From Lunasporangiospora selenospora (taxonomy: Eukaryota > Mortierellomycota > Mortierellomycetes > Mortierellales > Mortierellaceae): a stretch of 22,047 nt of DNA. The stretch lies in NCBI GenBank assembly GCA_015680635.1, contig JAABOA010000045.1, forward strand, positions 7,088 through 29,134, read 5' to 3'. The position numbers were made by a program, and so were the translations under genes. Below, one piece after another: positions 11,205 through 17,761 of the stretch (positions within the stretch are counted from its first letter, which is position 1; the number at the start of each line of letters is the position of its first letter). The notes beneath the pieces were generated by a model. That model did not search any database. It had not been told where the DNA came from and saw only the letters and a program-made list of their open reading frames with translations.

Positions 11205-11219
11205 ATGAACAATGGCTGA
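11205..11219 (+). promoter_or_regulatory. Upstream ORF 2 overlapping the main start codon (MNNG)
   Basis: The sequence ATGAACAATGGCTGA holds a four-codon uORF whose third codon contains the first two bases of the main ATG at 11212. A ribosome starting at 11205 stops at 11219, five bases past that ATG, so the uORF would compete directly with the main start. Confidence 0.6.
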
Positions 11220-14200
11220 CTCTGCTCCTCCTTCTATTGGCATCGCCTTGCCGCCAACATCTGTTCTAAAGATCAGAGACGCTTGTCTGCCATGTCGCAA
11301 GCAGCGATCTAAATGCGATGGCCAGCCATGTTGTTCTCGCTGTGCTCGACTTGAGCTTGAATGCACCTATGTTGAGTTAGTCAAGGCCCCGACACCTGCC
11401 CCAAAAGAACCTTGGCAAGAGTTTCTTGCAACAACTGGTACGAAGCCGGAGACTTTCGAGACCCTTGCAAGTGAGCTTTTTAATGACCCAGCCGTTGTCC
11501 CGGTATCGGACACCACTACCTTTCCCTGGCAAAAGCCCAAAGTTGCTCGAAGGCGCAAACAGACCTCCTCTGTGCGCTGTACCTGCCCCGTCACATCCAC
11601 GCCCACATCCATGTCCTCACCTATGTCCATGTCTATGTCCTCACCCGATCCTGCTGGCCAGGACTCGTTGTTACAGTCACCGCTTGCACAAGATGTGCCC
11701 GATCCTTTCACCAAGAGCCCAGATCCCCAGTCAGCACCCTTTTATTCCACCAACTCTAATGCTGCTCCAGCAGCAGAGCTGGGACAGAGCGGCACCAACA
11801 GCAAGCGCAAAGGTCGATCGACATCCGGGCCTTGCCGAGTGCATCAACCACACCTGTTCAGCAAACCACCACGGTCAGCAGCACAGATAGGTCCCTCGAC
11901 AGTCTCGACGGGAGCGTCGTCCTCAACATCCAGTATGGATGGACATGGTGGTGCAGGACCAAGTGGAGCACCTGCAGGGTTATTGCCATCAGGGCATCGT
12001 CATCGCCCTCCCCCAACCGAGCCAGCACCACTGCCAACCGCAGTGATCGAGACGTCCGAGAAAATCAACAATCTGAGCTCAAAACTCTCTCGGCTTTTCC
12101 TCTTCCCGGACAACTCTGTGCCGCCGCCACCACCCCAGCTCGCCATTCTCCAGTCGCGCTCGTTGTCTCCTGTGTTGCAGTCACACCTCATCCAGCTCTA
12201 CTTAACCTACTGCTGGCCTACACAACCGATCCTGGACCCACACACTTTCATGGCCCGGCTAGCTGCCCAGGAATATTGCACTCCACCCCATCCACTTTTG
12301 ATTGCTGCCATGTGTGCCGCAGCTGCACGGTGTATTGATGATACTGATATCGAGGCTCTCTGGGAAGAACATGACCTTCCAAACCCGATTTACCCCAGCT
12401 ATGCCAATGGCGAGCCTCGCGTTCGTTCAGCGCGCGACATGATCTGCTCCATCGGTGAATACTTTGGCTCGCTTGCCAAGGGCTATTTGCGGACAGAGTT
12501 ACCTCTGGTCCAGTCGCCGGACCGCTCTGGGGGTGCGGGTGACCCATTGACGGTTGTTCAGGGATTAATAATGATATCGACCTGGGATGCGTCAATCGGG
12601 CGGCAACGGGAATGCCAGGCTTGTTCAGCGCTCGCGCTGCGTATCATGATAGCAGGAGGCTGGCATCTTATGGACCATCCCAACGGTGATGGGTGCACAG
12701 ATAGTAGGATCAAGATGTGGGGCACGCTGGAGCGCGAGCTGGCTCGACGCTGCTGGTGGTTCGTTTGGGTTGCGGAAAAATGGACTGCTGCCATCCTTAC
12801 TCAGTATGTGGTACGTTCCGTGCGTTTTTATTATTTTGCTTTCATCTACTTGGAGCTAAACCCAAGGCTCAAATAGAACTGTGACTTGTATTCGAATGAC
12901 TGATGATGTCCAGCTACACTCTCTCCCTCTAGACTCTGCATCTCTCACTCTGCGAGACCCTTTCGCTGCCACGCGAGTTCCGTCAGGGGGACCCAAATGA
13001 TAACCTGACAGTGCGCTACTTTCCACAGACGATCCAAGGTGCTTATCTCTGCGGTGCTGTCATCCAACTCCACTATCATCCGTACGAGGCTGAAGATGGT
13101 ACTGAGTATCACCACGAGATCAGTTTGGAAGATTACAAGCGACTCGAGGCTCGACTAAACGAGATCGATACTCATCTTGAGGCCTGGTTCAAAGCCCTTC
13201 CAGGTGACCTGCGCCCTGATTGGGGTGAGGGTGCAGGAGAGGACAGTGGGGACGGACAGGGGTTCAAGCCCGGTGGAAGTTCGCAGTTCTTTGTTGCAGG
13301 TGGAGAGTGGTGGTGGCGACATTATGTTGGCTCACTGCTGGAGCTAAACTATTATGCTCGTAAGTGATCCATTAACCCAACTCTTGCCTTTTTTACTCTG
13401 TCATCCACGTTAATTTAATGTTTGGAGGAAAAATCTACACAAACGAACTTTACTAACGCTTGTGCATAACTTTTGTGTGTATGTGTAACTTCCTACGACA
13501 CAGTCAAACTGTTGCTTCACCATCCTCCACATGTTGTTTCTAAGATTCCCTCACCTGTGTCGCGGTTGAAGCTGGCCCAAATGGCCAACAAAATTACTTT
13601 GACCTGCGAACGGTTATGGCAGTATCCGACAACTCGCCCTGTGTTCTATCACATGGCTGGACCCATCCTCTGGCTAGCTCTCTGTTATCAGCAAGAAAAC
13701 ACATTGAGCGAGAACCCCAGGATTCGTACGCCAGCATGTGTCAACATGCAAAAGAGCTATTACCTAGTGAAGAAAGCAGGTCGTCTAGTTCATGCGAATG
13801 AAGACGAACCTTTGACAGAACTTGAGTCAGTCAGCGGAAACAGCACTACGGTATGAGCACGAGCGCGACATTTTATTCGTCCAAATATCATTTATGCTTA
13901 GCAACTAACGCTCTGTTGGCTGTCTTCAATAGGCCACACCCTCTTTCCTGCGTCTCAGTGACGATCAACACATCAAGCCGATCATGGAAATATTCAAAGA
14001 GATGTTTCCAGTCATTCGACAAACCCTCCGCGACAAAGGATTTGGGCTTCGGACAAGGCCTAATGCGACGTCGAAGATATCTCCAAGCATGCTTCTTCCA
14101 AATCAAGCACCATCACCGCCTGCACCACTGCTTCAAGATATGAGCAGTAGTCCTGCGATTGCTAGCATGCCTTCTTCAGTCGACCCGGCTCCTGCATCTA

Positions 14201-15005: not shown

Positions 15006-15217
15006 CATGGGACTCGTTGACCTTATTCTTGTTCCTGACTCCTTGCTAGTTTCTTGATCCCGTCATAAAATTCGTTCTTTACTCACTCTTTTCATTTCCT
15101 GGGAGGGGGTCTCAATCATAAAATATGGCCACTATCTTGTGAAGACCTGAGTGAATAACAGCGCTCTCGAGGATCGCGCGAGCTTGGTCCTTCTAGTACA
15201 GTCGAACTTTGGTCCTT

Positions 15218-15244: not shown

Positions 15245-15300
15245 GAAGCGAGATGGGAGGCTCCCTATTATTGCAACATACATTAGGCAGAGCAACCCCA

Positions 15301-15412
15301 GGTACTCGTGGTTCTACTCGTGGTTCTACTCGTGGTTCTACTCGTGGTTCTACTCGTGGTTCTACCCGTGGTTCTACTCGCAGTTTAGCTCGTGGTTCTA
15401 CTCGTGGTTCTG
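15301..15412 (+). repeat. 12-bp tandem repeat (GGTTCTACTCGT type) coding for RGST units
   Basis: About eight to nine head-to-tail 12-base units, some with substitutions (for example CAGTTTAGCTCG), encode Arg-Gly-Ser-Thr repeats in the transposase frame. The near-identical units point to recent expansion by slippage. Confidence 0.85.
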
Positions 15413-16101
15413 CTGATGGTTCTAGTCAAGTTTCCCCTGATTCTCGTCAAGTTCCGCCTAGCTCCACTCGAGTCTCAATTAGTACTGCTTACGCGTCTCC
15501 TGGAACAATATCGCTATCGCTTGCTCTACTTCCTGGTTCAGCTCAAGCTTCGAGCGCCACCAGTGGGCAACCTGGCAGCCGAAAAAGACCACCTGTTTCC
15601 CAGATTGTACAAAAGGCCAAAGGCATCGGATGGAACCCACCCGTTTTTAAGACTCTAAGATCAGGCAAATACACTCGTAGTCAACTGACGACAGTAGAGC
15701 GGACAACAACTGATCGCGTGAGTGACCTACTTCATTGCGCAAGGATGAAGGTTAAAAATGCCGCTCTAGTGTCGCCGACGGATGACCTGCCACGCATCCT
15801 TTTGGCAAGATACTCGTACACTTTCAGTCAAAAACCGGCATTCATTGAAAGTTACGACTACCTCAAAAATAGAGAGGATGAGGTGACAGGTGGCGTCTCA
15901 CTTGGAAACTTCGGCAATCTCATCGGTCTTGATATCCCCAAGCCTAGCATTCACCGGTGGTGTATGGAAGACAGAGAAAGGACATTCAAAGAGGCATCGA
16001 TCAATCCTGACGCGTGTAATTTAACCGTTCGGAAGCACATGAAACTTGAGGATGTATTGGTACGCTGGCTCGAGGATCAGCGAGGACGAGGCGACTTTGT
16101 A

Positions 16102-16109
16102 CGCAGAAG
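16102..16109 (+). repeat. Left copy of the target-site duplication around the MITE
   Basis: CGCAGAAG here matches GGCAGAAG at 16231-16238 in seven of eight bases. Eight-base duplications are typical of hAT-family insertions. Confidence 0.65.
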
Positions 16110-16230
16110 CAGTATTTCTGATTCAAGTTTTGATACTTGAAATCTCCTAACAAAGCTTGAGGTTTGAGCTTGAGTTTGATCAAACATCATTAAGAAATTT
16201 CAAGTATCAAAGCTTTGATCAAAAACACTG
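16110..16230. mobile_element. 121-bp hAT-like miniature inverted-repeat element (MITE) inside the transposase pseudogene
   Basis: The two ends form a 41-base terminal inverted repeat (16110-16150 and 16190-16230) with 34 matching positions by my alignment, starting CAGTRTTTYTGAT. A 15-base core (16129-16143 and 16197-16211) is perfect. Six of the seven mismatches are transitions. The 39-base middle contains the palindrome GTTTGATCAAAC. The ends beginning CAGT and the flanking eight-base near-repeat (CGCAGAAG / GGCAGAAG) fit non-autonomous hAT elements. Element plus one duplication is 129 bases, a multiple of three: taking both out rejoins the transposase frame as FVRRS-NMQDAAKS, supporting a real insertion. 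It codes for nothing. Confidence 0.78.
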
Positions 16231-16238
16231 GGCAGAAG
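16231..16238 (+). repeat. Right copy of the target-site duplication around the MITE
   Basis: GGCAGAAG matches the left copy (16102-16109) except for the first base. The identity continues as CA on both sides because the element itself starts with CA. Confidence 0.65.
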
Positions 16239-17761
16239 CAATATGCAAGATGCAGCAAAATCAATCTTCACTATTCTTGCAGATGAAAAGGATCCTGATG
16301 ATGTCTCCAAAGACACAACTCCATGTTTTTCAGTCTCTTGGTTCGACGATTTCAAGAAACACCACAATATTACATACGTGAAGCTGCGTGGAGAAGCAGG
16401 ATCAGTCGACCTTGAGAAGATCGAGCCTGAACTGGAGGCGATCCGTGCGCGTTGTGCACGGTATTCTCCTGACAACATTTACAACTGTGACAAAACAGGC
16501 CTTTATCTCAAACAACTGGATCCAAAGTCTCACACGACTGTCGGTGACACCACAGCTGGCGTCAAGGCTGACAAGAACTGCAGAGTTACCATTTTGTTTT
16601 GCATCAATGCCTCAGGCTCATCCTTACTGAAAGCGCAGCGATCAAGGCATTACAGCCTCTGGTTATCGGTGAGGAACACGACAGATGGCCTATCCGGAAT
16701 GAATGAAAACAAGGTGCATTCACTCATTCATCTCACTTCTCACTCGATGTCTATAGGAAAACACATTGCAAAAGGGATCGATAAAGAGTCTCTTAAACTC
16801 ATAGATGCGGAGAGAACAACTAAAGGATGGATGACAGGTGAACTATTCCTCAAATGGATGCAGAACTTTGACGATTAATTGACTGAACCAACTCTTCATC
16901 TTTTGGACTCGGCATCACAGCACAACAATACTGATTACAGTAACCCTGACACCAAGACACTCTGGAAACACCTCGATGTTGTGCGCCTTCCCGTCAACTC
17001 CACGTCCGTGACACAACCTTTGGATGTTGAAGTTATCAGTGTGTTCAAGAGAGTATTCTTGGGGATGCTCTGTCGCAAGACATCTGTCGTCCGAACACTG
17101 ACGGATGACAAGGTGATCAGCGATGGGCAAGCATGGGATCTCATTCCGTTTGCACGGAACGCTGGGAAAGCAAGCACATTGAGAAATTGCTTTGCCAAAT
17201 CCCCAGTTCCCCTGAAATCATGCACGCTACGATCAGGTCTATGCCAATTACAGACAACGAACGTATTATTCATGAAAGTAGCACGAAACGCCTTCGTCTT
17301 GCCGATCAAGAAAGGTTGTATTTCGAGCACCTGGTTGCCGAAACAAGCGCTGAAAAGGGCTGGGAAATCAAGGGTGCTGCAGAGTCAGATATTCTAGCTA
17401 CCTTCATGGAGGAGGAAACACTATCGGATATGCCCTTGCATGACCCAAACTCCACCGAAAATGATGATCAACAAGGCGTTGCAATGAGAGTTCTCCTGCA
17501 AGTGACCTTTTCAAGTTTATCGCAGATGGGCTTTCCAAATACACGGGAGGACAACCTCTTCATTCTCCCGAGGGTATGCGAAACACTCTTTATGTGAATA
17601 GGAAGGAAATGGGCCCAGAATTGCGGACCCACTTTAAAGGCATCCTTGACGTGCTCAAGAAACAAATGCGCGAAATAGTTGTTCCAGAGAAGCCATTTGC
17701 GACTCCTCCCTCTTCCAGTGGCGACTTTTTCGATAGCAATAACCCCTTCTGGAATAAATAA

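Follow-up and report, generated by a model that had tools for sequence, protein, structure and literature searches.

A putative hAT-type miniature element nested in a pogo/Tigger-type transposase gene of Lunasporangiospora selenospora

The window, by which we mean the whole 22,047-nt stretch of Lunasporangiospora selenospora DNA analysed here, contains a predicted transposase gene whose two parts are separated by a short non-coding element. Their positions in window coordinates are as follows.

15253-16109, plus strand: 5' part of the transposase, with the first part of its predicted DNA-binding region (joined flanks 41% identical to the homologue P0040)
16102-16109, plus strand: left copy of the target-site duplication, CGCAGAAG
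16110-16230, no strand assigned: non-coding element with terminal inverted repeats (TIRs) and hAT-like ends (CAGTA.../...CACTG), lacking in the host gene's relatives
16110-16150, plus strand: left TIR, 41 nt, 34/41 matching the right arm
16190-16230, minus strand: right TIR
16231-16238, plus strand: right copy of the target-site duplication, GGCAGAAG, 7/8 identical to the left one
16239-17761, plus strand: 3' part of the transposase, with the remaining DNA-binding region and the DDE_1 domain (PF03184 match; extent beyond ~17206 judged by eye)

A neighbouring Zn2Cys6 gene (11212-12876) matches the L. selenospora protein P0004 with 100% identity over 96% of the query.

The flanks of the element encode a single plus-strand protein. 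The stretch 16879-17397 matches the Pfam domain DDE_1 (PF03184, E 8.8e-10) and over 326 aligned positions the downstream part shares 48% identity with the homologue P0001; from this match and this similarity, the host gene is classed by sequence as a pogo/Tigger-type transposase. The motifs YNCD, LLD and QPLD, which we take to be its acidic triad, are present. For the Tc5/CENP-B-type DNA-binding domain, the separate pieces matched no Pfam family; PF03221 is found in many homologues, including P0040. The copy carries a stop codon in its 3' part (TAA, 16876-16878), and its frame appears to jump near 16630 and 17206, and possibly around 17490, relative to P0001 and P0040 (16630 and 17490 judged by eye). 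Between 14990 and 18000 no convincing candidate was recognised for the TIRs or TA duplication of the pogo element itself. Only one of the five inverted-repeat pairs in that interval encloses the gene (15049-15065 and 17647-17663, 17 nt, 88%), and it is probably a chance pair since its end falls inside apparent coding sequence. Two other pogo copies, both 38% identical, and a fragment on contig C30 were found in the same genome, none of them close. A diverged pogo/Tigger-type copy, L024 (C35:20500-25500), has long open stretches, an uninterrupted DNA-binding region and, about halfway along, two stops which could indicate an intron. Within the host gene, the 88 nt at 16669-16756 (GTGAGG...CTATAG) are flanked by segments reading PLVIG/GKHIAKG; P0001 has unrelated residues there and P0040 ends there, and we regard this segment as probably a true intron of the transposase. 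Tandem 12-bp repeats (GGTTCTACTCGT-like, 15305-15410) encode a run of GSTR close to where the transposase frame is proposed to start.

The element is 121 bp long, ends in CAGTRTTTYTGAT and has imperfect arms (34 of 41 positions matching, 40 of 51 on extension), in which palindromes such as TTTGATCAAA are nested; its right end is CAGTG and its left end CAGTA. Its inverted repeat is the best 41-base one of the 22-kb window at arm spacings up to ~200 bp and stands far above Markov sequences: ten first-order Markov sequences as long as the window had best 41-base repeats matching at 24-26 positions, and among 50 sequences of 551 bp that shared the element's composition the best reached 27/41. The flanking copies CGCAGAAG and GGCAGAAG agree at seven of eight positions, or can be read as an exact 7-base duplication, GCAGAAG; by a rough reckoning, one in some 2,600 pairs of unrelated 8-mers would agree at seven or more positions. 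A direct repeat at the junction (12/13, 16103-16115 and 16232-16244) overruns the 8-bp duplication into the first bases of the element, since CAATAT in the right flank is similar to the CAGTAT with which the element starts, a likeness which may be due to chance or to a target resembling the element's end. The element has a G+C content of 31%, against 47% in its flanks, and when translated in the host frame it contains several stops. No Rfam family was matched at the gathering threshold in the region 15900-16450. Folded as RNA, the element reaches -39.9 kcal/mol compared to -20.2 kcal/mol for shuffled sequences (z -5.92), and as DNA it gives z -4.86; this strong fold follows from the inverted repeat, which must fold so. 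The first-pass annotation had suggested the arms, if transcribed, as a possible small-RNA source; they fold well by computation, and small RNAs would be a conjectural product of such a hairpin. Short, non-coding and TIR-bearing, with a target-site duplication (7/8), the element shows these features of a MITE.

The element and one copy of the duplication amount to 129 nt (121+8), a multiple of three. Removal of 16110-16238 yields the joined sequence ...FVRRSNMQDAAKS..., and removal of the left copy of the duplication instead yields ...FVGRSNMQDAAKS...; both versions stay open until the TAA at 16876-16878, and an in-frame TGA (16138-16140) is contributed by the insert. Of the proteins compared, P0040 (340 aa, JGI source) matches the joined flanks best, and no closer relative spanning the site was found; it was compared at the protein level, whereas L024 was read as DNA. 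Across both sides of the site, 321 aligned positions are 41% identical to P0040, the junction is free of gaps and 16 gap positions lie elsewhere. With the insert retained, the alignment over the same ends takes 59 gap positions, an increase of 43 that equals the insert's own size. The diverged paralogue L024 (contig C35, ~32% identical) is uninterrupted at the site with the same spacing, and a worn paralogue, L025 (C386), lacks the insert, with 53 nt between the landmarks compared to 60 expected. We then examined the spacing in an alignment of 59 sequences (57 homologues, L024 and the joined window), from which P0001, which begins at the site, and P0004-P0016, which belong to a transcription-factor query, had been left out. 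Both landmark columns are occupied in 39 sequences, the other 20 being gapped at one. The distance from the conserved W to the A column is 20 residues in the joined window and in 30 others (L024 included), 19 in six and 21 in two. Scored against a profile of the 57 homologues, the joined protein peaks at 145.8 bits with precisely the 129 nt removed, and shifting the right boundary by one to eight codons either way lowers the score to 134.1-141.7 bits. Since P0040, L024, L025 and the spacing of the homologues all lack the insert at this site, it reads as an insertion and not as ancestral sequence, and we hold it very probable that 16110-16230 is a transposon-like element nested in a pre-existing pogo/Tigger-type transposase. 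One observation counts against this conclusion: the gene model of P0001 starts exactly at MQDA, which follows the insert in the window, a coincidence for which we can offer only that the M of MQDA is an ATG. The first-pass annotation had described a 41-base TIR with an eight-base duplication inside a pogo-like transposase, and both points stand, at 34/41 and 7/8 for the repeats, and with a DDE_1 match and joined flanks gap-free against P0040 for the host. Its claim that the transposase reads through once the insert is taken out holds locally, but not beyond the TAA at 16876-16878 or across the points near 16630 and 17206 where the frame appears to jump. It had also named intact transposases of the same genome carrying the same 121 bases as the finding that would speak for an ancestral part or an intron; among the diverged relatives (P0040 at 41%, L024 at ~32%) there are none, which argues for insertion.

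Further copies were sought in 8.2 Mb of assembly in 475 contigs, which may be incomplete, and copy counts are lower bounds. A search of this assembly with the whole element returned itself and its own reverse only. The 18-base end, with up to two mismatches, gave 11 matches in the 8.2 Mb, two being the element's own ends and nine lying elsewhere, against three for the reversed control; none of the nine continues like the element over the 160 bases examined. The 13-base end, with up to one mismatch, matched 51 times compared to 38 for the reversed pattern, and no second inward-facing pair at short distance was seen among these matches by eye. A 15-base inner arm motif (up to one mismatch) was found three times, twice in the element itself and once on C122 in unlike surroundings. 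A gapped pattern search of the 8.2 Mb recovered the window copy only, a sensitive comparison with 28 loci, the window copy left out, gave matches of only 13-16 bases, and in the viral contigs scanned the 34-base arm had no match. An exact 13-base match on C125 was rejected, the following 300 bases being unlike the element, and two matches on C275 were dropped as outward-facing and lying within a larger inverted repeat. That region of C275 (L037:860-979 and 1340-1459) has 120-nt arms, 89% complementary and separated by 360 nt, contains further nested arms and holds CAGTGTTTCTGA facing outwards on both sides. The count in the 475 contigs is therefore at least one copy, that of the window. The first-pass annotation had spoken of an element family and proposed a genome search with 16110-16230; the search brought up the window copy alone, and the family is not borne out at this lower bound. 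The element may be a MITE in the strict, multi-copy sense. A literature search by title gave nothing concerning this element among the titles listed; the name of the host species turned up in one paper, which deals with fungi of ancient wooden vessels.

hAT elements typically have a CAGTG-type end and an 8-bp duplication, and their TIR ends follow a CA..G pattern. The CAGT...ACTG ends of the element and its 8-bp duplication, which has one mismatch and can also be read as an exact 7-bp one, point to this superfamily. Other traits agree less well. hAT TIRs are given as 10-25 bp in an excerpt of PMC3942097; the element's arms, at 41 bp, are longer, and its left end is CAGTA, not CAGTG. Target preferences of nTnnnnAn for Hermes and nnnTAnnn for TcBuster are described in the parts of PMC10368747 and PMC10512250 consulted. 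In CGCAGAAG the A at position 7 fits, but the G at 2 and the AG at 4-5 do not; these preferences belong to single elements and are not a defining requirement of hAT. The hAT dimerisation domain (PF05699) has four matches in the assembly, on C287, C141, C271 and C111. In the 8.5 kb around the C111 match no ends of the element were found, bar one partnerless 13-base match at two mismatches, and no transposase-coding element with its ends was found in the 8.2 Mb.

The other three PF05699 matches are remnants within a hAT-derived family of about 606 bp, located at:

C287 (L028:2648-3253), with PF05699 remnant
C141:12225-12834, with PF05699 remnant
C271:15165-15583, with PF05699 remnant, at the contig end
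C90:12002-12241, part of a copy

At C287 the copy lies between two identical 8-bp flanks, GGCAAAAG, which differ from GGCAGAAG by one base; its ends are TGGTGATT and CAGTGATT, with a TIR match of 10/14. As a single hit it is weak, because the scan that found it yielded 0.15 spanning hits per run in Markov sequences (20 runs; the Markov control for L029 was void, with 57 N). The family is real because there is a second copy at C141, in which both ends are CAGTGATT (CAGTG/CACTG), the flanks are alike at 6/8 positions and identity is 79% over 604 query bases. It is apparently non-autonomous, and hAT-type elements with CAGTG ends have thus moved in this genome. The family resembles the window element in its CAGTG-type ends, its 8-bp flank duplication and its lack of a full transposase, but is five times longer and carries a PF05699 remnant. 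Compared with the right end of the window element, its right end matches at 10/14 and its left end at 8/14 positions; beyond the first bases the sequences differ, and the window element was rejected as a copy of this family. The family demonstrates hAT activity in the genome, not hAT movement of the 121-bp element, and we raised the weight given to hAT, and lowered that given to MULEs, on its account.

It is unlikely that this is a non-autonomous element from a superfamily other than hAT in which long TIRs go with 7-9 bp duplications, for example a MULE. In MULEs the TIRs are long and the duplications measure 8-11 bp, and such an origin would suit both the arms of 41-51 bp, long for hAT, and the duplication, which is exact over 7 bp when the mismatched base is dropped. 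However, the CAGTG-type end and the 8-bp duplication resemble in kind the hAT-derived family of the same genome, and the MULE domain PF10551 has no match in the assembly, which may be incomplete. Mobilisation by a hAT-type transposase is the likely reading. The earlier assignment to hAT was supported in its duplication, its CAGTG end and the presence of a hAT-derived family in the genome; the search for a partner found none in the 8.2 Mb.

It is very improbable that the insert is an intron, or an introner-like spliced insertion, in a transposase uninterrupted as a protein. The family probably has an intron elsewhere (the 88 nt at 16669-16756, where relatives diverge), the P0001 model starts exactly at MQDA, and stop-free in-frame GT-AG pairs do occur, e.g. 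16112-16249 (138 nt) and 16127-16255 (129 nt). We listed all GT/GC-AG pairs with donors in 16040-16159, acceptors in 16190-16319 and a length divisible by three. None of these 45 pairs takes out 16110-16238 or its equivalent. All stop-free GT-AG pairs have acceptors at 16249 or beyond and cut MQDAAKS, which is gap-free in P0040 and of which P0001 keeps MQDA, while the GC-AG pairs without stops cut into WLEDQ, RGRGDFV or MQD. The pair 16127-16255 has the right length but is shifted, so that it retains part of the element and cuts MQDAA. The site is moreover uninterrupted in P0040 and L024. As no in-frame GT-AG or GC-AG pair accounts for the insert, this explanation was rejected. No more credible is a local inverted duplication or chance foldback: a single copy and arms with nested palindromes would suit it, but the arms have no long match in the flanks 15900-16450 (longest partial match 25 nt at 76%), the relatives lack the element with a gap-free junction, and the flanks are duplicated at 7/8 positions.

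On the reading as a nested hAT-type insertion, the element would be a short non-autonomous DNA transposon that entered the DNA-binding region of the pogo/Tigger-type transposase gene by cut-and-paste, most likely mobilised by a hAT-type transposase acting in trans, and presumably moving elsewhere in the genome. The site before insertion would have held a single NGCAGAAG, which staggered cutting and repair would have turned into the 8-bp target-site duplication, since altered at one base. Within this explanation, the inverted repeats, the duplication, the absence of the insertion from relatives and the broken frame are observed. The order given in the first-pass annotation, pogo copy first and insert later, is sound as logic: because it lies inside the gene, the insert is younger than the gene of the pogo lineage. 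It may have entered a live pogo copy or one already dead, and since no close second copy was found, the pogo copy may also have arrived here already carrying it. More speculatively, and with doubt prevailing, the element could represent an undescribed low-copy hAT-type miniature family of the Mortierellaceae, with its autonomous partner outside the 8.2 Mb or lost, whose long arms would give a hairpin RNA on transcription.

The locus shows a nested insertion with exact boundaries, and locally the succession of events, in a fungal lineage for which annotation is sparse. Repeat annotation in Mortierellaceae should profit from it, where such a disrupted gene could otherwise be modelled as two genes or with a false intron; the general view of transposons is unaltered by it. 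The host gene shares with pogo/Tigger/Fot-type transposases (DDE_1, PF03184) its DDE_1 domain, the spacing of the DNA-binding region of its homologues and YNCD, LLD and QPLD, but unlike these the present copy is broken, and no TIR or TA duplication belonging to it was convincingly recognised. The element itself is comparable to hAT-type MITEs such as mar and the BuT2-derived elements of Drosophila, as presented in excerpts of PMC3517528 and PMC3942097: like these it is short and A+T-rich, has no coding capacity and combines inverted terminal repeats with an 8-bp duplication. According to the same excerpts, the Drosophila elements occur in several copies and share their ends with a known hAT element, whereas the 8.2 Mb searched here yielded a single copy without a partner, and the arms exceed 10-25 bp. 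Nested insertions are common in fungi, and the present case is a real but ordinary one. In Mycosphaerella graminicola, the part of PMC4522978 consulted reports 78 putative nested transposon clusters, which likewise place transposon within transposon; their primary insertions are mainly LTR retrotransposons, whereas here a miniature DNA element lies in a pogo-type gene.
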